From a virus, in the IMG/VR virus record IMGVR_UViG_3300049732_000304, positions 1 through 35,774 of that record: DNA of 35,774 nt; one strand, given 5' to 3'. Shown in pieces: positions 17,727 through 30,948 of this stretch (positions are counted from its first letter, which is position 1; each line of letters starts with the position of its first letter). The notes beneath the pieces are model-generated. The model searched no databases. It was not told where the DNA came from and saw only the letters and a list, made by a program, of their open reading frames with translations. The position numbers and the translations under genes were made by a program.

Positions 17727-20011
17727 TGGCCGAATACGATTGCGAATACTGGAAAAACCAGATCACCCTCTCCGAGAAGGACTTGGAGAATTTCCATTCG
17801 GCGGGGGACACGGTCAACGGACACTACCTCGACACGAATACCTCCAATGAGGAGGGCCTTGGTGCTCACAAGGTCAATATGTTCTGGGCGAACGTCGGCA
17901 TTCTCAAGGCGGCACTCTACGGAAACCCGCCCAAGCCGATCGTAGGACGCGAATTCCAGGATCCAGAAGACGATGTGGCTCGCGTAGCAGGCGAAATCAT
18001 TTATCGTCTTCTGCAGACAGGTCCCGGAGGCTCGGGAGCCGATATGCACAATGCTCTAAATCAGGCGGTCGAGGATCGCCTGATTCCGGGCCTCGGGCAA
18101 ATCTGGTTCCGCTACGATTCCGACATCTCCAGCGGAACTTACGAGGGCGTTCCCATCGAGAAAATCAACGATGAGAACGTCCCTTGTGACTATGTCCACT
18201 GGAAGGACTTCTTCTACAGCCCGTGTCGCTTCTGGACGGAGTGTACATGGGTCGCGCGACGCGTTTGGATGTCCAGAGGCGCGATGAAGAAGCGCTTCCC
18301 GCAGCACGCCGACGCCATTCAGTTATTTGCGTACCAAGACGGTAAGGGTATTACGGTACGAAATGACGATCCTGCGAAAACCGAGATGCGGGGAGAGATT
18401 TTCGAGATTTGGTGCAAGGCCACGAAGCGAGTACATTGGATCGCGCGGGGCTACGACACCATGCTCGATGAAAAAGACGATCCGTACCAGCTTAAAGATT
18501 TCTATCCGTGCCCGAAACCACTTCTGGCGAACAAAACGAACAAGAAATTCATCGGGCGTGCCGACTATACGATGGTGCAGGATCAGTATCAGCAGCTCAA
18601 CAACATCAATATCCGGATAAACTACCTCGTCGATGCGTGCAAGGCCGTCGGGGTCTACGACAAGACGGCCAAAGGCGTCGAAAGAATGCTCAATCAGGGA
18701 GTGGAAAACCAACTCATCCCTGTGGACAATTGGGCCGCATTCGCCGAGAAGGGCGGCGTTAAAGGAGTCATCGATTGGCTCCCGTTGGAAGTCATCATTA
18801 CCGTCATCGAGAAGCTGCGCGAGGCGCGCAGCGACACGATTCAGCAAATCTACGAATTGACGGGTATTTCCGACATCATGCGTGGTGTCACCAACGCCCG
18901 CGAGACCTACGGAGCCCAGAAACTCAAGGCGCAGTACTCTAGCTCGCGCCTACAGCTCTATCAACAAGAGGTGGCCGAGTTCGTGGCGGAGGGGCTTGTC
19001 ATTAAAGCTCAGATTATCGCCAACCACTTCCAACCAGACACCATTTTTAAGAAATCCTTGATCGAGTACACGCCAGACGTCATGTACGCGCGGCAGGCGA
19101 TTCAACTCATCAAGGACAAGCTCATGTTGATGTATCGCATCAACGTGTCCGCGACCCAGATGTCGCTGCCGGACTACAATGCCGAAAAGCAGAATCGACT
19201 GGAGTTCGTCGAAAAGATGGGCCAATTCTTCGGCCAGATGGCGCCGATCCTGGAGAAGGCTCCCACGGCAGCGCCATTCGCTCTCAGAATGCTTCAGTGG
19301 GCGGGGGCGGCGTTCGACACTCGCGGAGGCGTGGAAACGCTGTTCGACAACTACATCCGCGAGGTGGAGAAGACACTCAGCACCCCACCTGCCCCTCCGC
19401 CCGATCCGACGCTCCAAAAGGCGCAAATCGACGCGAAAAACAAGGTCGACATCGCCCAATTCGACGCCAAGAGCAAGGAAACGCTTGCCACCATCGACGC
19501 GAACGTGCGGTGGCAGATCGCCCAACTTGAAGCTCGCACGGAGAAGGAAATCGCGGGCCTCAAAGTTGATTCGGATCAGCAAATCGCGAATAATGCCAAT
19601 ATCAAGGCGTTTGGCGAAGAGGCTAAGGGCCTCGATGAGGAGCGCCAGAAGCTTGAGTCGGACCGCCGTGACTTCGAAAGCATGGCGGAAATCACGGAAG
19701 TCCAAGTCAAGTCTCTCGTGGATGCTGCCCTGCTTGAAATCGAGCGTTTGGGCCTGAACCATGAGGCCAAGACGAAAGATGCAATCGCGACGGCCGAGCG
19801 GAAGAATAAGGAGGCCGTGACGACCTCCGAGAAGGACAGCTCGGCTAAGGAAGTTGCAGCCCTTCAGAAGATGCACCGTGAGATGGTCACGGCTGTGAAC
19901 GAAGTAGCGTCCCATCTGAAAGAGATGAAGAAATCCAAGCCGAAGTCGGTAGCCATAGAGCTTCCCGACGGCAAGACGGCGTCCGCTACGATCACAGAGG
20001 AGACTAAGTAA
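17726..20011 (+). CDS. Portal protein
   Basis: 761 residues. The N-terminal two thirds read as a podovirus-type portal: MFWANVGILKAALYGNPPKP, GLGQIWFRYDSD, WKDFFYSPCRFWTECTWVAR, YTMVQDQYQQLNNINIRINY and the conserved ELTGISDIMRGVT. The last roughly 180 residues form a long charged helical region (QIDAKNKVDIAQFDAKSKET, then many Lys/Glu heptads), likely the barrel or an internal coiled coil. It forms the dodecameric DNA gate at one capsid vertex and the platform for the tail tubular proteins. It is directly coupled to TerL upstream and to the next gene (TAATG). Confidence 0.95.
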   Translation: MAEYDCEYWKNQITLSEKDLENFHSAGDTVNGHYLDTNTSNEEGLGAHKVNMFWANVGILKAALYGNPPKPIVGREFQDPEDDVARVAGEIIYRLLQTGPGGSGADMHNALNQAVEDRLIPGLGQIWFRYDSDISSGTYEGVPIEKINDENVPCDYVHWKDFFYSPCRFWTECTWVARRVWMSRGAMKKRFPQHADAIQLFAYQDGKGITVRNDDPAKTEMRGEIFEIWCKATKRVHWIARGYDTMLDEKDDPYQLKDFYPCPKPLLANKTNKKFIGRADYTMVQDQYQQLNNINIRINYLVDACKAVGVYDKTAKGVERMLNQGVENQLIPVDNWAAFAEKGGVKGVIDWLPLEVIITVIEKLREARSDTIQQIYELTGISDIMRGVTNARETYGAQKLKAQYSSSRLQLYQQEVAEFVAEGLVIKAQIIANHFQPDTIFKKSLIEYTPDVMYARQAIQLIKDKLMLMYRINVSATQMSLPDYNAEKQNRLEFVEKMGQFFGQMAPILEKAPTAAPFALRMLQWAGAAFDTRGGVETLFDNYIREVEKTLSTPPAPPPDPTLQKAQIDAKNKVDIAQFDAKSKETLATIDANVRWQIAQLEARTEKEIAGLKVDSDQQIANNANIKAFGEEAKGLDEERQKLESDRRDFESMAEITEVQVKSLVDAALLEIERLGLNHEAKTKDAIATAERKNKEAVTTSEKDSSAKEVAALQKMHREMVTAVNEVASHLKEMKKSKPKSVAIELPDGKTASATITEETK

Positions 20012-20457
20012 TGGCTGCTTTCAACAAGATTCAGGACTTCGTGGAGCAGCTTGGCCTCGCGGTCCACAATCTCAACACCCACACCTTCAAGGTCGCACTC
20101 AACCGATCCGACGCCGCCGCAGGAGCGGGTTCGGCAGTCCAGGCGACCGACACCATCCTCGCGAATATCGTCCAGCCGACGGGTACGGGGTATGCGCCGA
20201 TCGATGTGCTGAACACATGGGCAGAGTCGGGCGGCACGGGCACCATGACCGGAACGAAGGCTGTATTCACGGCCGGAGCCGGCGACTGGCAGACCTTCCG
20301 CTACGTCGTGCTCTACAACGACGATGCCACCTCTCCAGCCGATGCACTCGCCGGCTATTGGGACTACGGCAGCGACCTTCAGCTCAACAACGGAGAGACG
20401 TTCTCCGTCAAGTTCAACAACAGCGACACAACCGGAACGATTCTCACTATCGCGTAG
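20011..20457 (+). CDS. Conserved virion-associated hypothetical
   Basis: 148 residues: MAAFNKIQDFVEQLGLAVHN, FKVALNRSDAAAG, DTILANIVQPTGTGY, then a beta-rich half (WQTFRYVVLYND, FSVKFNNSDTTGT). This FNKxxxFVExL...VHNL...FKVAL pattern recurs in phage structural gene clusters, and the fold is probably a small beta protein of head or tail. Start overlaps the portal stop by one base. Decoration or adaptor role is a guess. Confidence 0.72.
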   Translation: MAAFNKIQDFVEQLGLAVHNLNTHTFKVALNRSDAAAGAGSAVQATDTILANIVQPTGTGYAPIDVLNTWAESGGTGTMTGTKAVFTAGAGDWQTFRYVVLYNDDATSPADALAGYWDYGSDLQLNNGETFSVKFNNSDTTGTILTIA

Positions 20458-20465
20458 GAGAAAGC

Positions 20466-20642
20466 ATGGAGCAAGGCGACAAGCGGAAAGAGTGCTGCCG
20501 GGACGAGAAAAATCTCGGCCCTGTGGTCCAGGAACGGAAGGATCTCACCTATCGCAGATGTCAGGTCTGCCAGTGCCGTCACTTCGAGTTGACGGTAGAG
20601 CCGGGCAGGCTCGGTTTGCGAGGTGGACAAGTAGGAGGTTGA
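20466..20642 (+). CDS. Small zinc-ribbon-like protein
   Basis: 58 residues from ATG at 20466-20468 with GGAGA upstream. It carries KECCRDEKNLG early and RRCQVCQCRHFEL later, giving five cysteines and a histidine that could bind zinc (CC...CxxCxCxH). I recall similar CCRDxxNLGP...RRCxVCxCRHF proteins encoded in many phage structural clusters; the function is unknown. It is easy to overlook because the same frame is open upstream. Confidence 0.72.
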   Translation: MEQGDKRKECCRDEKNLGPVVQERKDLTYRRCQVCQCRHFELTVEPGRLGLRGGQVGG

Positions 20643-20643
20643 A

Positions 20644-21741
20644 ATGCTTGGACTTCGCGCGAATGTCGACGACCTGATCATCAATATCGGCACTGCTGCC
20701 AATATTGAAATCAGTCGTAACGTTATCATCGCAGATAGCGCAGGCCCTCCGGCGATTAAGGCTATTCCAGATCTCGGCACTCTTGGAGATCAGACGGGTA
20801 CTGGCGATGTAACCATTGTCGACACTAGCGGTGGGACATCTGGGGATACGTGGAACGTTCAAGATTGCTGCATCGCCAACACCCACGCGAGCGCAAGCAC
20901 TCTTGTCAAAGTACGAATCGACGACGGCACGAATTCTTCGCAGAAAACCCAGGCGACGCTACTGCCGGGCGAATCGCTGACGCTGCTGGAATCCGGCCTG
21001 TGGATCCATCAGGACGCGAACGGCGGGATTTACCCGGCGTCGTTCAATTCGATCAACGTCCAAGTGTTCACAGCGAGCGGCACGTACACCCCTACACCGG
21101 GGATGAAACATTGCATTGTCATTGCTACAGGCGCAGGAGGTGGTGGAGGAGGCGCGGATAATGACGCTACATCTGGAGCGACTGGCGTTGGCGCAGGGGG
21201 AGGTGCCGGAGAAACTCGCATCGGCTTCTTCACCGCGGCCACTATCGGCTCATCGCAGACAGTTACTCTCAACGCGGCTGGTACAGCAGGCTCAGCCACA
21301 AACGGAGCAAATGGTGGCGCTGGTGGTTCTACTACGTTTGGTTCCTTAATTACCGCAAATGGTGGATCAGGCGGGACAGGCTCTGGCAATAGCGCCATTG
21401 ACGTTAGCGGAACCGCAGGAGGTGCTGGAGGCACTGGCGGTTCCGGGGGCACGCTTGCCATCGATGGAGGAGATGGTGGTGACGGCTTCGGAATGTCGGT
21501 GGACGGGACTACGGACGTCAGTGGTGGGATGGGGGGCTATGGTGGAAATTCCTTCTGGGGAGGTGGGTCTCGCGGAGCGATCCAAATCAGCGCAACTCTC
21601 ACCAACGCCGCCAACACGGCTGGAGTAGCCGGAAAAGCATACGGCTCGGGCGGCAGCGGCGCTGTCAGCACGAACTCCGTGACGGGTGCCGCTGGTGGCG
21701 CGGGCAAGTTGGGAGTCATACTGGTTATTGAGTACGTTTGA
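20644..21741 (+). CDS. Glycine-rich adhesin-like virion protein
   Basis: 365 residues. Residues about 1-135 look like a beta-rich virion-binding part (LLPGESLTLLESGLWIHQD). Then VFTASGTYTPTPGMKHCIVI and ATGAGGGGGGADN start a glycine-rich domain running to the end (SGTAGGAGGTGGSGG and similar). The sequence FxxSGTYTPxPG followed by Gly-rich repeats is the signature of phage glycine-rich tip or receptor-binding domains, some of which fold as polyglycine-II bundles. GGAGG precedes the ATG. Its position between portal and scaffold, not at the tail end, is unusual, and it may be a head fibre or decoration. Confidence 0.75.
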   Translation: MLGLRANVDDLIINIGTAANIEISRNVIIADSAGPPAIKAIPDLGTLGDQTGTGDVTIVDTSGGTSGDTWNVQDCCIANTHASASTLVKVRIDDGTNSSQKTQATLLPGESLTLLESGLWIHQDANGGIYPASFNSINVQVFTASGTYTPTPGMKHCIVIATGAGGGGGGADNDATSGATGVGAGGGAGETRIGFFTAATIGSSQTVTLNAAGTAGSATNGANGGAGGSTTFGSLITANGGSGGTGSGNSAIDVSGTAGGAGGTGGSGGTLAIDGGDGGDGFGMSVDGTTDVSGGMGGYGGNSFWGGGSRGAIQISATLTNAANTAGVAGKAYGSGGSGAVSTNSVTGAAGGAGKLGVILVIEYV

Positions 21742-21742
21742 A

Positions 21743-22054
21743 ATGCCTCAAACTGACATCTCGCCGCACGCACGCATTCAGGCGATACTTCTCTTCGACG
21801 GTGTCGGCAATGCCGGGGCAGTGAACGGCGAAACTCGTACGATCACTGGTCTGCAAGTCAACAACACGGCTGAGCGACGGGTCGATCTCAAGATCGAGGA
21901 GGAGTCAACCAAGCGCTCATTCGGGGGCTCAATCAGGGGTGGGCAGACCCTAAACGTTGAGGCGGTGCCGAACTACACGATTACGTGGAACGCAGCGAGA
22001 GGATTCTGGGACGGCCTGAATATTCACTGGGTGATGCCGCCGCACAATGGCTAA
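21743..22054 (+). CDS. Small beta-rich virion hypothetical
   Basis: 103 residues: MPQTDISPHARIQAILLFDG, NGETRTITGLQVNNTAERRV, GGSIRGGQTLNVEAV, YTITWNAARGFWDG. Alternating strands and turns suggest an immunoglobulin-like or jelly-roll fold. It follows the glycine-rich protein by one base and overlaps the next gene by eight, so these are one translation unit. Function unknown; probably a virion accessory protein. Confidence 0.62.
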   Translation: MPQTDISPHARIQAILLFDGVGNAGAVNGETRTITGLQVNNTAERRVDLKIEEESTKRSFGGSIRGGQTLNVEAVPNYTITWNAARGFWDGLNIHWVMPPHNG

Positions 22055-22808
22055 AAAGATGCCGTTCCTACGAGCTAATAGCTCGGTGCTGTCAGGAACT
22101 CGGACGAATACGACTATCACGGCACCGGCTGGGATCAAAGACGGCGACATCCTGCGGATCTACTTCGAGTTGACCGCGGATCCAGGGCCACCCGTCAGTG
22201 TGACGCCGCCCTCTGGCTTCGTCGAGCTTGCCTCCGACGATACGCTGAACGCGCTGGGAGGAAGCGGTGTAGGCGATCTTCGCGCGCGTATCTGGGAGAA
22301 AGTGGCGCTTAACGAGTCCGGTGACTACACTGTTACTCACAACAACGCCAGCAGTATTGCCTATATGGAAGTCGTTGCGAACTGCCTCGCGGCATCAGAT
22401 TTCGCGGCGACCGAGAACCCGGTCAACGAGAATGGCACGAACTACACCGCGACTGGCGGGACGACGACGCAGCCTAATACGTGGGTGACGTTCTGCTCGA
22501 TGTGCTGGGAGGATGGCTCGCCGTTTTCGCCTCCTTCTGGAAGTACTCCAACATTCACAGAGCTGTTCGATCCCGCAACTGGCTTTATGTACATCGCCAG
22601 CGGAGTTATGCTTTCGCCGGGCTCAACAGGCAATAAGACGGCGACGGGGAACTCGCAGGCGACGACCGGAGGGCAGGTGGGCTTTCTGACCAGTCTGCTT
22701 TCGGATTATGTACAGCCGGTGAGCGATCTTGACAGAAGAATCATTAACTTGATTTCCGATCCCAGCGGATACCTTAACAAGGTCAAATCTAGCAGGAATT
22801 GGTTCTAA
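22047..22808 (+). CDS. Beta-rich virion surface protein
   Basis: 253 residues. TNTTITAPAGIKDGDILRIY, PPSGFVEL, ARIWEKVALNESGDYTVTHN, MEVVANCLAASDF, VTFCSMCWEDGSPF and GFMYIASGVMLSPG give a sandwich-like beta pattern found in phage and bacterial adhesion domains. The C-terminus (DLDRRIINLISDPSGYLNKV) may be an attachment segment. No enzyme motif. The neighbours suggest a surface module of the head or the portal vertex. Confidence 0.65.
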   Translation: MAKKMPFLRANSSVLSGTRTNTTITAPAGIKDGDILRIYFELTADPGPPVSVTPPSGFVELASDDTLNALGGSGVGDLRARIWEKVALNESGDYTVTHNNASSIAYMEVVANCLAASDFAATENPVNENGTNYTATGGTTTQPNTWVTFCSMCWEDGSPFSPPSGSTPTFTELFDPATGFMYIASGVMLSPGSTGNKTATGNSQATTGGQVGFLTSLLSDYVQPVSDLDRRIINLISDPSGYLNKVKSSRNWF

Positions 22809-23840
22809 ATGGGCTTTAAGCTCATAATCGAGAAGTGGTTCAACCCAATTCTCGATCCGGCAGCGGGAACTCCAGGCGTTTACTCTATCAACGCCGAACC
22901 GGGCTCATTTACGATTACAGGATTCGCAGCGACTCTAGTCGCTGGGCGTATTATTGACGCCCAACCGGGATCCTTTGCGGTCACCGGATTCGCAGCAACA
23001 CTCGCGAAAGGATATTCACTCGATGCCCAGCCCGGAGTCTTCATCCTCACCGGCTTTGCAGCGACCCTCCTTGCTGATCGTAGCATCAACGCCGTTCCGG
23101 GAAATTTCGCGATTACAGGATTTGCTGCGACGCTCGCGAGAGGGTTATTCCTCGATGCGCAGCCGGGAGAGTTCACCGTCACTGGTTTCCAAGCTGACCT
23201 CTTGGCTGGAAGATCTATTGACGCTCAAGTAGGCTCTTTTGCGATCACCGGCTTCTTGGCGGGCCTTCTCGCAGACCGTAGCATCAATGCGGAGCCGGGG
23301 TCGTTCACGATTACGGGCTTCGCGGCCGATCTTGTATACACGGCTGGAACTCCTGGAGCCTACGTTCTTGACGCTCAGCCCGGAGTCTTCCTACTCACGG
23401 GGTTTGATGCGTCCACCGTAGCTGATCGTTTTATTAATGCTGCGCCTACGTCTTTTACGATTACCGGCGCTGATGCTACGTTTGTCGTAGAGCGCAGCAT
23501 TTCCGCGGATTTCGGCACCTTCACGGTGACCGGATTCCCGGTGGAGTTTGTCGCGCCCACACCCATCGAAGTCCCGAGGGTCGGTGGCGGATTTTATGAG
23601 TTGATGTATCGCCGAAGAAGAGAATATGAAGAAGAACACGAAGAGCCGAAGACGGCCGTTCGGGATGCGATACTTGCAACTCTGGAAAAGCAGGGTGTGG
23701 AATTCACTCCCAAACAGGTCACGACGACAGTGGTGGCTGTATCACCTTCTATGGTGGAAGTGAAAGTCACACTGCCGCCCGTTACAAAGAGTCAACTTGA
23801 TGCTATAATCGCGGCCATCCTCGTAGCGGAGCTTCTATGA
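22809..23840 (+). CDS. Virion protein with ten 22-residue repeats
   Basis: 343 residues. Residues 25-252 hold ten tandem units of 22-23 residues with consensus (S/F)(I/L)(N/D)AxPGxFxITGFAATLxAxR; unit 7 is 27. Between units 7 and 8 a spacer AGTPGA repeats the AGTPGV that precedes unit 1, hinting at a larger duplication. Alternating residues suggest a beta-solenoid or stacked hairpins. The C-terminal 90 residues switch to charged helix (YRRRREYEEEHEEPK) and a VEVKVTLPPV strand. It starts right after the previous stop. I cannot name a family; a fibre-like surface or adhesin role is inferred. Confidence 0.75.
   Translation: MGFKLIIEKWFNPILDPAAGTPGVYSINAEPGSFTITGFAATLVAGRIIDAQPGSFAVTGFAATLAKGYSLDAQPGVFILTGFAATLLADRSINAVPGNFAITGFAATLARGLFLDAQPGEFTVTGFQADLLAGRSIDAQVGSFAITGFLAGLLADRSINAEPGSFTITGFAADLVYTAGTPGAYVLDAQPGVFLLTGFDASTVADRFINAAPTSFTITGADATFVVERSISADFGTFTVTGFPVEFVAPTPIEVPRVGGGFYELMYRRRREYEEEHEEPKTAVRDAILATLEKQGVEFTPKQVTTTVVAVSPSMVEVKVTLPPVTKSQLDAIIAAILVAELL
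22881..23564 (+). repeat. Tandem 66-base coding repeats (10 units)
   Basis: DNA encoding the ten ITGFAATL repeats. The DNA copies have drifted far more than the protein, so the repeat is old and kept by selection at the protein level. Confidence 0.8.
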
Positions 23841-24154
23841 AACGCAGATTCATTCAGCAGTTGGACGGAACTCTTGTGGAAGTTTCGCCTGATTTCGTGG
23901 CCGAACCACAGAACCATGATGGAGTTTTGTGGAACGATCGTGCCTATCAGGACGCGGGGGATTCAAGATTTAGTTCTCGCTCGCAGCACCGTGAGTTCAT
24001 GAGGGCGAGGGGGCTAACGACCACTGACGACTTCAAGAATCAGTGGAGAACAGACGAGAAAAATCGTATAGAAGCACGCAAGGGAGTCGATCCGAGTCGC
24101 AAAGCAGATATTGCGAGAGCCATCGAGGTAGTGAACTCTAGGAGAAAATCATGA
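23837..24154 (+). CDS. Conserved small podovirus hypothetical
   Basis: 105 residues: MKRRFIQQLDGTLVEVSPDF, WNDRAYQDAGDSRFSSRSQH, REFMRARGLTTTDDFK, then a helical tail. I recall similar small proteins just before phage scaffold or capsid genes, where RFxSRSxHREFMRxxGL is the best-kept part. Overlaps both neighbours by four bases (ATGA). The role is unknown; assembly-related is a fair guess. Confidence 0.72.
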   Translation: MKRRFIQQLDGTLVEVSPDFVAEPQNHDGVLWNDRAYQDAGDSRFSSRSQHREFMRARGLTTTDDFKNQWRTDEKNRIEARKGVDPSRKADIARAIEVVNSRRKS

Positions 24155-25275
24155 GCGATGTACGCGCAGACATCGAAGCAGCCCTGACAAGAGCCGAGGC
24201 GGCAGCGGCTCCGCAGCCCGAAGAAAAGCCGACCGAAGTCAAAGCGGAGGAAAAGCCCGCCGAAGAAAAGCCCGCTGAAATCAAAGCGGAGGAAAAGCCC
24301 GCCGAAGAGAAACCGGCAGAAGAAAAGCCCGCTGGAGAGCAGAGGCCAGCGGAAGAAAAGAAGCCAGAAATCAAGGCGGAAGAAAAGCCCGACGAGCAGA
24401 AGCCTGCGGAGCAGAAACCTGTCATCAAAGTTCGCCCGCCGGAAAGCTGGAAGCCCGCCATCCGGGAAAAGCACTGGACGACACTTCCTCTGGAGGTGCA
24501 GGCGGAAATTCATCGTCGCGAGCGCCAGATTGACATAGCGCTCCAGCAGTCGGCCGAAAGTCGCAAATTCGCCGAGCAATTCGGTGGACTTTTCGCCCAG
24601 CACAAGAACTTCATCGAATACGAGAAGACCCCGCCCGCGCAGATCGTCTCTAACCTATTCAACATCGCCAGCAGTCTCCGCTTTGGAGCCCCTGCTCAAA
24701 AAGCACAAGTCGCCGCGCAAATCATCCAGGGATTCGGTGTCGATGTCAAGCTTCTGGATCAGGCGCTGGCCCTCGTGGTCTCTGGCAATGGAGCTCCAGC
24801 GAACGGAGGTTTCGACCCCAACGCTCTGGACGCCGCCATCTCTCGCCACATGGCTCCGTTCCGTGATTTCATGCAAAACGTGACCACGCAACGTGAGAAT
24901 GTGGTGAAGGACCAGAACAAAAAGATGGAGGACGAAATCAACACGTTCGCCAACGATCCGAAGAACGAATACTTCGAGATCGTCAAAGACACTATGGCCG
25001 ATCTTCTGGATGCGGCGGCTAACCGCGGAGAGCAAATGAGCTTGCAAGTCGCCTACCAGCGTGCTATACTCGCCCATAGTGATCTCGCGGCCACAGTGAC
25101 GCAAAAGGAAGTGTCCAAAGCGGCCTCGAATCTGAATGCTCCGGCTCAGAAGTCTCGCGAACTCGCGGGAATGAGCGTAACGGGAGCGCCGTCAGGTTCG
25201 GCCCCTTCCGCGAATGTGGACACAGTCCGGGGAGCCATCGAAGCCGCGATCGCGAAGCACAGTGGTCGGCAGTAA
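24151..25275 (+). CDS. Scaffolding protein
   Basis: 374 residues. The first 95 are a charged repeat arm built from EEKPAE/EIKAEEKPAE units. A helical body follows (EVQAEIHRRERQIDIALQQS, VAAQIIQGFGVDVKLLDQAL, MEDEINTFANDPKNEYFEIV) with an Ala-rich end (GAIEAAIAKHSGRQ). The acidic, helical, low-aromatic character and the location directly before the major capsid protein are typical of podovirus scaffolds. It should guide capsid assembly and be lost before or during packaging. Start overlaps the previous stop (ATGA). Confidence 0.88.
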   Translation: MSDVRADIEAALTRAEAAAAPQPEEKPTEVKAEEKPAEEKPAEIKAEEKPAEEKPAEEKPAGEQRPAEEKKPEIKAEEKPDEQKPAEQKPVIKVRPPESWKPAIREKHWTTLPLEVQAEIHRRERQIDIALQQSAESRKFAEQFGGLFAQHKNFIEYEKTPPAQIVSNLFNIASSLRFGAPAQKAQVAAQIIQGFGVDVKLLDQALALVVSGNGAPANGGFDPNALDAAISRHMAPFRDFMQNVTTQRENVVKDQNKKMEDEINTFANDPKNEYFEIVKDTMADLLDAAANRGEQMSLQVAYQRAILAHSDLAATVTQKEVSKAASNLNAPAQKSRELAGMSVTGAPSGSAPSANVDTVRGAIEAAIAKHSGRQ

Positions 25276-28082: not shown

Positions 28083-28832
28083 ATGCCCTTCGAAGTTGCG
28101 GATCCGACTTACGGACAAGCGATTATCGAGATCAGCAAGTTCGTGGGGCATTCGATTCCTGCAGATCCTGCAGGCTCTACAGATCCAGCCCATCAACAAA
28201 TGGGGGCTGCAATCAATCTTGCGCTTGAACAACTACTGACGTTCAATGAATGGCAGGAATTGACGAAGCGGGCGACCTTGTCTGTCGTGGCAGACTTCGA
28301 GGGGCAGCAGGAGAAAGGTTTCGATCTTCCCGAGGATTTTGACCGCTTTGTGGATCAGACACAGTGGTCTTCGAGATCTACAGAGCCCGCAGGTGGGCCG
28401 ACTAGCGCTCAGGCGTGGCAGTCGTATATTGTTCGCAACATGGTGATGCAGTTGACGCTCTATTGGCAGCGTCGGCAGAGCCAACTCTGGTTTCTGTATC
28501 CGCCGCACCTGACCGCTGTGGACTTCGAGTACATCTACATTTCGAAGTGTCAGGTCGTGGACGCAGACAACCCCGCTCTCTTTAAGGATCGTGCATCCAA
28601 GAATGGAGACACGTTCCTCCTCGACAGCACCATGGTCAGACTTCTCGGCAGATATCACTATCTGACTTGGAAGGGCTTCGATACGGCGGCGGCCGACAAT
28701 GATTTTACCCAGATCTTTGAAGCGCGTACGGGATCGAATAAAGGCGCGACAGTGCTCTCACTCTGCCGCCAGTATCGCGTGCCACTAATCAGCCCCATTT
28801 ACTCCGTACCTGACACAGGATTTGGGAGTTGA
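28083..28832 (+). CDS. Tail tubular protein A-like head-tail adaptor
   Basis: 249 residues. AAINLALEQLLTFNEWQELTKRA (in part), FDLPEDFDRFVDQTQWSSRS and AWQSYIVRNMVMQ follow the pattern of podovirus adaptor proteins (T7 gp11 type), where a W...xT...DLPxDFxRxxxxTxWD core is conserved. GGGAGG is just upstream. It should form the ring between the portal and the nozzle. It is coupled to the next gene (TGATG overlap). Confidence 0.83.
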   Translation: MPFEVADPTYGQAIIEISKFVGHSIPADPAGSTDPAHQQMGAAINLALEQLLTFNEWQELTKRATLSVVADFEGQQEKGFDLPEDFDRFVDQTQWSSRSTEPAGGPTSAQAWQSYIVRNMVMQLTLYWQRRQSQLWFLYPPHLTAVDFEYIYISKCQVVDADNPALFKDRASKNGDTFLLDSTMVRLLGRYHYLTWKGFDTAAADNDFTQIFEARTGSNKGATVLSLCRQYRVPLISPIYSVPDTGFGS

Positions 28833-30493
28833 TGCTTCTCAAACCTACCGCGAAGAAGCATAAACGTCCTCAGGCTCAAATTCAGAAATGGGATTTGTTG
28901 CCCGCGCCCGTCAAAGGGTTGGACGTCACGCTTCCATTTTCAGATCAAGATCCACGCACAGGTCTTATCCTTGAAAATGTCATTTGCCGCCGTGCTGGAA
29001 TTGAACTGCGCGGCGGGGCTGGGCGCTGGACTACGAATCTTGGCGGTGTCGGGGTAGACTCGCCCGTACGGTCTTTGGCCGGATATCTTCCGGAAAGAGG
29101 CACAGGTAGTGCTCAAACATCAAAACTCTTCGCTTTTTGCGAGGACGAAAAAGTTTACGACGTAACTTCTCAGACCGACGAAGCCACCGCACCTACGTCT
29201 GTTCTCACTATCGCAGGGCAGACAGAACCGGGCTACGTCAGCCATGTGAATTTCGCGGGGGTGGGGACAAATTATCTCCTTGTGGCAATTCCTGGAGTTG
29301 GGTACTACACTTACGATCACGTGGGTGGATGGGTAAATCGCACCGCCAGCGTTACGGGAGTGGCTCCAGGAATGTCTTCGGTAGCATTCGTCATGATTTG
29401 GAAGAAGCGCGTTTGGTTTCTTTTTCATAATGATACTCGCGCGTACTTCTTACCTGTCGGAGCGATCACAGGGGCGGCTTCGGAGTTTGATTTTGGGCCT
29501 AATCTTGCTCACGGGGGTACTCCACAGGTATTGGCCTCTTGGACTCGCGACAGTGGTGATGGAATAGATGATAATCTCGTCCTTGTGGGGTCGGGAGGAG
29601 ATGTAATCATCTACGCAGGAACCGATCCGGCGGGAGCTTCGACTTTCGGCATGATTGGTCGGTGGTACATTGGACCGCCCGCTTCGGGGAGGCGCTTTGC
29701 CACGAAATATGGCGGGGATCTTGGCATTCTTTGTGAGAACGGTATTGAATTCATGTCTCGCCTTGTCGCCGCACAAGGCTTGCTAGATCCTGACGGCGAA
29801 CAAGTCAATGCGGCCACTCGGCGATATAATGAAGTTATCGCCAATGATATTCGCAATACTCGAGGAGATTTCGGATGGCAAGCCATCCACACTACCTCAG
29901 AAGATTGCGTAATCATCATAACTCCCCACAATGCCGTAGCGGCTTCTTCAATTCAATATTGCTTTTCCACAATCCCTGCTGCATGGTCAACTTTTAGAGG
30001 AATTCCCGCCGCTACAGCAGAATTTTTTGAAGGAAATTTATTCGTTGGCACTCCGAATGGGACTATTCAGAGAATGTTTGATTCGGATAAAGACGACGTT
30101 CTAACCGATGGCTCTGAAGGAACGGACTTTGTAGCGAATATCCAAACAGCGTTCATACCGCCTAATGACGATAGAATGCGTCAAAAGATTCCGCAGTTGG
30201 TGATGACGATGTTTACCGCCCCAGAGCCGCCGTCTATTATCGCAAGAATTAATACAGAGTGGAGTGGCACGCCCCCATCTGGAACACTTACATTTCCTCC
30301 AAATGACAATGCCCTGTGGGACAGTGCCATTTGGGATGAAGCAGTCTGGGCAGGTCCTGGGAATACATATCTAGTCTGGGTTGGAGTTGTGGGTCTCGGC
30401 TGCTATGTTTCACTCAGTCTTTCTATTGTCGGTAAGCCGCGAACACTCTTCACTAGTTGGAAGATCATCTACACTCTCGGAGGATTGATGTGA
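28832..30493 (+). CDS. Tail tubular protein B-like nozzle protein
   Basis: 553 residues. It starts with a basic segment (LLKPTAKKHKRPQAQI) and then GLDVTLPFSDQDPRTGLILE, NVICRRAGIELRGG, followed by beta-propeller-like repeats (GVGYYTYDHVGGWVNR, VWFLFHNDTRAYFLP, DDNLVLVGSGGDVIIYAGTD, FEGNLFVGTPNGTIQRMF). This matches the T7 gp12-type nozzle: large, beta-rich, directly after the adaptor gene. I start at ATG 28832-28834; a TTG three bases earlier is less likely. The beta-propeller reading is inference. Confidence 0.82.
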   Translation: MLLKPTAKKHKRPQAQIQKWDLLPAPVKGLDVTLPFSDQDPRTGLILENVICRRAGIELRGGAGRWTTNLGGVGVDSPVRSLAGYLPERGTGSAQTSKLFAFCEDEKVYDVTSQTDEATAPTSVLTIAGQTEPGYVSHVNFAGVGTNYLLVAIPGVGYYTYDHVGGWVNRTASVTGVAPGMSSVAFVMIWKKRVWFLFHNDTRAYFLPVGAITGAASEFDFGPNLAHGGTPQVLASWTRDSGDGIDDNLVLVGSGGDVIIYAGTDPAGASTFGMIGRWYIGPPASGRRFATKYGGDLGILCENGIEFMSRLVAAQGLLDPDGEQVNAATRRYNEVIANDIRNTRGDFGWQAIHTTSEDCVIIITPHNAVAASSIQYCFSTIPAAWSTFRGIPAATAEFFEGNLFVGTPNGTIQRMFDSDKDDVLTDGSEGTDFVANIQTAFIPPNDDRMRQKIPQLVMTMFTAPEPPSIIARINTEWSGTPPSGTLTFPPNDNALWDSAIWDEAVWAGPGNTYLVWVGVVGLGCYVSLSLSIVGKPRTLFTSWKIIYTLGGLM

Positions 30494-30948
30494 TTCTTAC
30501 ATCACGTAATCCGGGCGATCGTAGACTCCTTTTTGAATTCTTACATGAGAGTGAAATTCTCCTTTCGTGGTCGGACGATTTTCAAGCCTTTGGAGTTCTA
30601 AACAAGGAACTTGCGCTCAAGGCTGTTGTAGGCTACAATTCGTTTTGTCGGAGAACGTGCTCGATGCACGTTGCTGGGAAAGGACATTGGCTTAGTCACG
30701 AATTTCTGTTTGCGATATTCGACTATCCTTTCCGGCAATTGAACATCGTGCAGGTGTTTACGACGACAGCGGCTAACAATGAACGATCGCTGAAGCTGCA
30801 ACGTCACGTAGGCTTCAAGCCTTTCGCCATCATTCCTCGGGGTTGGGATGAACAGACTGATTTGATCGTCTTAACGATGACCAAAGCAGGCTGCAGATGG
30901 TTAAAGGGACGACATGAGCAAAGGGAGCTCGCCTCCGCCTGCGCCTGA
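30490..30948 (+). CDS. GNAT-type acetyltransferase-like protein
   Basis: 152 residues from GTG at 30490-30492, with GGAGG eight bases upstream. The C-terminal half shows the GNAT layout: FRQLNIVQVFTTTAANNERS, LKLQRHVGFKPFAIIP and a final strand LIVLTMTK, with the Asn-x3-Ser-x2-Leu...Gly-Phe acetyl-CoA-side pattern. The N-terminal half is more diverged (FLHESEILLSWSDDFQAF). Such genes lie among podovirus tail genes, and their substrate is unknown. It overlaps the next gene by 35 bases. Earlier in-frame starts run into the nozzle gene. Confidence 0.75.
   Translation: MILTSRNPGDRRLLFEFLHESEILLSWSDDFQAFGVLNKELALKAVVGYNSFCRRTCSMHVAGKGHWLSHEFLFAIFDYPFRQLNIVQVFTTTAANNERSLKLQRHVGFKPFAIIPRGWDEQTDLIVLTMTKAGCRWLKGRHEQRELASACA

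Follow-up and report, generated by a model that had tools for sequence, protein, structure and literature searches.

The 343-residue protein encoded at positions 22809-23840 (+ strand) of the window, the whole 35,774-nucleotide stretch analysed here, is probably an accessory, swap-prone spike or fibre of the virion, with a beta-helix rod, a C-terminal anchor and a likely role in host contact. Its carrier is a short-tailed phage, represented by a 35.8-kb virus record. The initial annotation had read the protein as a repeat-built virion fibre, and this interpretation stands in part: we infer presence in the virion from gene order, from tail and head-spike-base proteins to which the same repeats are fused, and from an adaptor-like partner, whereas the breadth of the repeat family, the hypervariable slot in which the gene lies and the conservation of its C-terminal domain alone were not visible from the single sequence. 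Appendages with beta-helices are known already, as are tailspikes and head spikes; in the open-access literature, no paper was found on the 22-residue unit as a family, on its linkage to an adaptor-like gene, or on a slot between the portal and scaffold genes.

The protein begins with a 26-residue leader (22809-22886), which resembles the IIEKWF start in locus L010 and whose first six residues have a low pLDDT in the AlphaFold2 model. The ten tandem 22-residue units described in the initial annotation follow, with their count and placement upheld, in two arrays: units 1-7 (aa 27-48, 49-70, 71-92, 93-114, 115-136, 137-158 and 159-180; positions 22887-23348), predicted to be beta-helix coils, and units 8-10 (aa 187-208, 209-230 and 231-252; positions 23367-23564). 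The periodicity is far above chance, as evidenced by a lag-22 self-identity of 94/208 against a maximum of 40 at lags 10-49 in 5000 shuffles, and by a two-unit DNA pattern that matches six times in the window but never in 100 shuffles that preserve dinucleotides. Unit positions A3, F8, T11 and G12 do not vary across the ten units. The AGTPGx spacers reported ahead of units 1 and 8 are located at aa 19-24 and aa 179-184 (the second at 23343-23360), the second lying within a six-residue insertion in the predicted turn between strand 3 of one unit and strand 1 of the next; in locus L127 the same inter-array junction reads PVSGAFV. The remainder of the protein (aa 253-343; positions 23565-23837) is a C-terminal domain, the putative anchor, that the lineage retains while exchanging everything ahead of it.

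Divergence of the DNA copies with retention of the protein pattern, also proposed at the outset, is borne out by mean pairwise unit identities of 52% for protein and 53% for DNA, and by NG86 estimates in which the mean dS of 1.9 exceeds the mean dN of 0.49 (22 of 45 pairs computable). At the DNA level, units 3 and 8 are the most alike of all unit pairs (74% identity), which suggests that array 2 may have begun as a copy out of array 1.

The repeats likely form a right-handed parallel beta-helix, a reading that draws on the predicted model and on the hydrophobic pattern of the units. AlphaFold2, run on a single chain with 47 natural sequences as input, yields a right-handed parallel beta-helix with one unit per turn and three short strands per unit (mean pLDDT 84.6; repeat blocks 71-96, mostly 82-96), followed by a C-terminal domain predicted as beta-alpha-alpha-beta-beta-alpha with a pLDDT of about 80-96 from aa 261. 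Sequence set A1 comprised the window protein, six lineage proteins and 40 of 48 repeat runs. In structure comparison with VIA-align, the best row is Cthe_2159 (4peu, of family PF14262), with a Z of 19.6 and an rmsd of 3.1 over 213 aligned residues; the two proteins differ in sequence (12% identity), and the window protein has no match to PF14262, whose curated cut-off it does not reach. Other high rows are a calcium-dependent beta-helical antifreeze protein (3p4g, Z 18.5) and HxuA (4i84, Z 17.7). The leading beta-helix entries are presumably right-handed; hexapeptide acyltransferases, which we take to be left-handed, align to the repeat model only at an rmsd near 12. Most right-handed parallel beta-helix proteins are not known to have a regular sequence repeat. 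Lower rows include the tailspikes CBA120 TSP2 (5w6p, Z 14.6), phi29 gp12 (3gq8, Z 14.1) and P22 (1tyv, Z 12.6), which likewise have a beta-helix body. Those tailspikes form trimers that carry enzyme sites and attach to the virion through N-terminal anchors, whereas it is the C-terminal end of the window protein that is kept. The comparison list is filled with parallel beta-helices, so the stacked hairpins once offered beside a beta-solenoid are not favoured; the beta-solenoid, a prediction still, is backed by the model, the structure comparison and the sequence pattern. Foldseek found no match below E 0.001 in the PDB for either the repeat model or the model of the partner gene product described below, and a single match below 0.001 among viral predictions for the repeat model, to an uncharacterised phage protein.

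It is unlikely, on the evidence that follows, that the helix is an artefact of AlphaFold2 and that the repeats instead make up, for instance, a fibre of three intertwined chains or a flexible linker. Many phage fibres are trimeric, and the models here are of single chains. One published study also describes a bias of AlphaFold2 towards solenoids, in which even random perfect repeats are modelled with confidence, and gives internal charged stacks as a warning sign of false solenoids (PMC11795689). Because AlphaFold2 over-predicts solenoids for repeats, evidence independent of any model was sought in the sequences. Among 439 distinct units from the matches listed, unit positions 1, 3, 15 and 17 are hydrophobic in 88, 80, 88 and 90% and charged in 8, 0, 0 and 1% of cases, respectively, positions 6, 8 and 10-12 being excluded from the count as fixed by the search pattern. 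Internal charged stacks are thus absent, and the positions predicted to face inward are hydrophobic and almost free of charged residues, as in a right-handed parallel beta-helix. Moreover, the input consisted of natural units of 52% mean identity, together with 46 relatives, rather than of perfect repeats. One repeat protein (L065) scores above the curated cut-off of the PF14262 beta-helix family with three stretches, though unrelated families score there too; overall, 8 of 95 repeat proteins match PF14262 with E-values no higher than 0.001, in most cases through summed weak repeat matches, which makes the match weak support for the fold.

The genomic setting of the repeat protein is a variable slot. 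The late genes run in the order terminase large subunit (TerL, 16407), portal (17726), slot (20011-23836) and a conserved 105-aa gene (23837-24154, + strand), followed by a probable scaffold gene (24151, assigned by position), the major capsid protein gene (25377) and the tail genes. The 105-aa gene marks the boundary of the slot, and its start overlaps the stop of the repeat gene, the last gene of the slot, by four bases (ATGA). The N-terminus of the probable scaffold (24151-24430) carries low-complexity EEKPAEEKPAE-type repeats. Searches with TerL and the capsid protein yielded 100 related loci, some of which overlap on one contig; among 52 non-redundant relatives, the interval from the portal gene to the next recognised gene ranges from -35 to 3825 bases and is shorter than 200 bases in 20. 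Thus the slot is hypervariable and the repeat gene is accessory, many relatives lacking such a slot.

In the window, the slot opens with a 148-aa partner gene (20011-20457), and all of its genes are on the + strand. Second is a glycine-rich tail-fibre-like gene (20644-21741; PF21722, 9e-8; phrog_863, 6e-38; phrog_6202, 1.1e-16), located between the portal and scaffold genes and outside the tail module. A 122-aa gene of no assigned function (21686-22054) has homologues only in two near-identical contigs, and the 253-aa gene directly upstream of the repeat gene (22047-22808) is matched by phrog_6813 only, at 2.5e-4. The idea that the product of this last gene is a split-off form of the N-terminal part found in the L127 repeat protein was dropped, the best blastp match being no better than E 6.

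The C-terminal domain of the repeat protein is kept in seven distinct proteins, behind several kinds of N-terminal part, and a profile of it matches only these seven source proteins among the ORFs of L002-L225. In the case of L127, whose terminase is 90% identical to that of the window, the slot proteins between the partner and the repeat gene have no match to those of the window, and the repeat protein opens with a different N-terminal part, some 260 residues long, ahead of its units, of which there are eight by motif and nine by eye (arranged 6+3, versus 7+3 in the window). The C-terminal domains of the two proteins are 69% identical over 88 aa, with a dN of 0.22 and a dS of 3.4. In other relatives, the same domain stands behind 20-22-residue GxYxWxG repeats in L132 and L160, after a basic low-complexity stretch in L136, after almost nothing in L130 and, in the same slot of L156 (3560-5233), with a repeat of about 32 residues that contains QPDT and a conserved W. 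The most economical interpretation is a C-terminal domain docking on a component that stays constant in the lineage, with the remainder as exchangeable cargo.

The unit itself extends well beyond this lineage. A plain protein search with the 343-aa protein found it 100% identical in two more viral contigs and found no relative in bacterial genomes; tblastn retrieved five phage records at about 30-33% identity, and there was no match at E 0.001 to Pfam, PHROG or NCBIfam models or to PDB sequences. A profile match in the PDB to the large bacterial adhesin 6xi3 (E 4.8e-7) was rejected as compositional, its best single stretch having an i-Evalue of 0.023. Pfam matches such as Lipocalin_4, ComJ and Yop-YscD were rejected because they sum weak repeat matches with no significant stretch. 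Relatives were found with a degenerate DNA pattern that encodes the motif G-x-[FY]-x-[ILV]-T-G twice in succession, at a distance of 22 codons. In the viral collection this pattern hits at least 120 stretches, with an ORF of at least two motifs in 119 of the 120 listed, and among these matches the motif-to-motif spacing is 22 in 479 instances, 44 in 89, 20 in 55 and 24 in 41. The same pattern hits 36 stretches in the bacterial genome collection, 20 of them with an ORF of at least four motifs; two of those 20 loci (L245 and L248) have irregular spacing. The pattern restricts length changes to the part of the unit after TG; within that part, units longer than 22 residues (24-30) carry the extra residues after position 17, in the turn following the third strand (judged by eye), and 54 shorter units have lost two residues somewhere within positions 13-22. 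The 22-residue unit is thus a widespread family, recurring in many unrelated phage proteins, and looks like an interchangeable part of spikes and fibres.

Additional domains and termini of these proteins are varied. Sequence set A2 comprised the window protein and 94 of 114 distinct repeat proteins, the 20 omitted ones being chosen by hand and mostly cut by contig ends or near copies; Laminin_G_3 is present in 7 of 95 repeat proteins and CBM96 in one of 95. A recurring leader like MLGFSPLASAPLAD precedes the repeats in L006, L036, L038, L058, L090, L091 and L112, and a looser version of it in L029; such a leader may be a docking peptide. Behind the repeats, a short tail like YIELRSFTERRRM recurs in L004, L014, L016, L017 and L079, and other groups of repeat proteins end in DPNWTLVA or ETWTEAA. 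Given these differing C-termini, several anchor types seem to exist among repeat proteins.

The partner gene at 20011 (phrog_644, 1.3e-11), whose product is a predicted beta-sandwich, is linked to the repeats well outside the window. By phmmer, a homologue is present in 68 of the 119 repeat loci among the matches listed and none was detected in the other 51, some of which are incomplete loci. All 68 are on the same strand as the repeat gene: 64 are upstream, one more is upstream with a one-base overlap (L061), and three are downstream (L034, L098 and L121). By profile, among loci with at least four motifs, the partner is present in 59 of 97 viral ones from the matches listed and in 10 of 20 bacterial ones. 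As a control, among the 100 TerL/capsid relatives the partner occurs in 4 of 4 loci with the motif versus 2 of 96 without, and the two motif-less loci (L132 and L162) are one contig that carries the variant GxYxWxG array; the control is small, since it includes overlapping pieces of one contig and its four positives come from three contigs. Across 50,697 phage records, the partner matches ten at 1e-5, including the five repeat-carrying records. Sequence set A3 comprised the window partner and 64 of 70 further partner sequences, six being omitted.

The AlphaFold2 model of the partner has a pLDDT of 90.3 and a pTM of 0.86, and each of its best 12 VIA-align rows is a tailed-virus protein of the neck, tail tip, baseplate, tail or fibre. 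These include a T4 baseplate protein (5iv5_BJ; Z 12.4, 127 aligned), the GP4 'Fiber I and fiber-tail-adaptor' (8jou_a; Z 8.9, 118 aligned of 136), the Bxb1 tail tip (8.3), the Bas63 connector (7.3) and the Sf14 neck (7.1), with others down to 4.7, against a Z of at most 4.6 for cellular proteins. Rows below Z 8 may reflect a merely common arrangement, and the three above Z 8 weigh most. The likeness of the partner to the GP4, T4, Bas63 and Sf14 proteins is one of predicted fold, with no detectable sequence similarity, and no sequence link to a solved structure was found for the 20011 family or for its homologue in Pam1; the fold comparison covers the families that VIA-align lists. That homologue lies between the needle-head and needle genes of Pam1, and in L166 a GDSL lipase comes after an adaptor-like ORF that itself stands right behind the portal gene. 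The predicted fold suggests that the 20011 product is probably an adaptor linking such appendages to the neck or tail.

Where on the particle the window protein would sit is a further question, on which fusions and gene order bear. In L093, the repeats are placed after a tail protein (phrog_1101, 2.2e-260, aa 2-1039), and in L027 and L075 they precede a C-terminal head-spike-base domain of gene transfer agents (GTA; NF048002). These fusions thus suggest that some phages place the unit on head spikes and others on tails. For the window protein, a GTA-like head spike at a capsid vertex, capturing the host capsule away from the tail, is a rather doubtful placement. It is in keeping with the position of the repeat gene next to the scaffold and capsid genes, with the L027 and L075 fusions, whose rod-then-anchor order the window protein shares, and with spike-base genes beside the repeat cassette in L015 and L062; the weakly matching PDB relatives of the spike-base family are a Spike Base Protein (E 0.0038) and the head spike base Rcc01079 (E 0.042). 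The gene order in L015 and L075 (spike base, 20011-family gene, repeat protein) suggests a head-spike cassette. However, NF048002 is above cut-off in 5 of 50, 0 of 38 and 0 of 17 records of three sets, the last of which comprises the window and its near relatives, so that no spike-base gene accompanies the repeats there; the C-terminal domain of the window protein, a predicted mixed alpha-beta fold, has no match to NF048002; and the partner model resembles neck and tail proteins.

That resemblance leads to a neck or tail fibre, in which the 20011 product would be a collar-like adaptor holding the repeat protein, a placement that is tentative but to which slightly more weight is given because of the adaptor-like neighbour at 20011. 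Besides the fold of the partner, the slot starts directly after the portal gene, and the L166 and Pam1 arrangements described above point the same way. For DEV, fibre N-domains are described as forming collars around the head-to-tail adaptor, in a comparison with GP4 (PMC10925440). Set against this, the adaptor match is one of predicted fold, with no sequence link, and the binding of the repeat protein to the 20011 product is presumed.

The location of the repeat gene in the head module, apart from the tail genes, counts against the reading as a spike or fibre. A protein of the capsid interior, an assembly aid or a non-virion protein, such as a late blocker of superinfection at the cell surface, would suit a gene that neighbours the scaffold gene and shares four bases with the gene after it, and late non-structural genes between the portal and capsid genes have been proposed for Gratiaviridae (PMC8008677). 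Such a role is nonetheless improbable, as the same repeats are fused to tail and head-spike-base proteins and a neighbour in the slot is tail-fibre-like.

An accessory spike or fibre would work as follows. The repeat gene would be expressed late, together with the scaffold and capsid genes, as its four-base stop/start overlap suggests. The ten units would coil into a right-handed parallel beta-helix of about ten turns, creating a stiff rod; beta-helix turns are spaced about 0.48 nm apart, which would make the rod about 5 nm long. The C-terminal 90 residues would anchor the protein to the particle or to partner subunits, directly or via the 20011 adaptor, and this proposed anchoring role would be why they are kept. 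The rod and the parts joined to it would be exchanged by recombination within the hypervariable slot, from the portal gene to the 105-aa gene. Either the surface of the rod or partner proteins from the slot, for instance the glycine-rich 20644 product, would make contact with the host, perhaps with its polysaccharide, by analogy with other repeat proteins, in which lectin-type domains (Laminin_G_3 and CBM96) suggest carbohydrate contact.

A broader reading, put forward with reserve, is that the unit may serve Caudoviricetes in general as an as yet uncatalogued building block: a beta-helix rod of tunable length set between varied anchors and binding domains, and travelling with the adaptor gene as a portable cassette in head and tail modules. 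Its anchors could conceivably be the head-spike base, the tail protein and lineage-specific C-terminal domains. If so, one simple repeat would explain a large set of phage proteins named hypothetical and would help to recognise surface appendages, together with their adaptors, in uncultured phages. It would also mark a recombination slot where one lineage swaps its probable host-contact parts, and the cassette would link GTA head spikes with ordinary tail appendages, making the origin of head spikes testable.

Two further genes of the window lie within the tail module. The gene at 28829-30493 has an amidase as its best PHROG match (5.8e-71), yet is located among tail genes right after a tail protein, and the amidase name may be wrong. 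An acyltransferase-like gene (30457-30948; phrog_4470, 3.2e-31) is also present there, and in Pam1 an acetyltransferase gene is likewise found among the tail genes.
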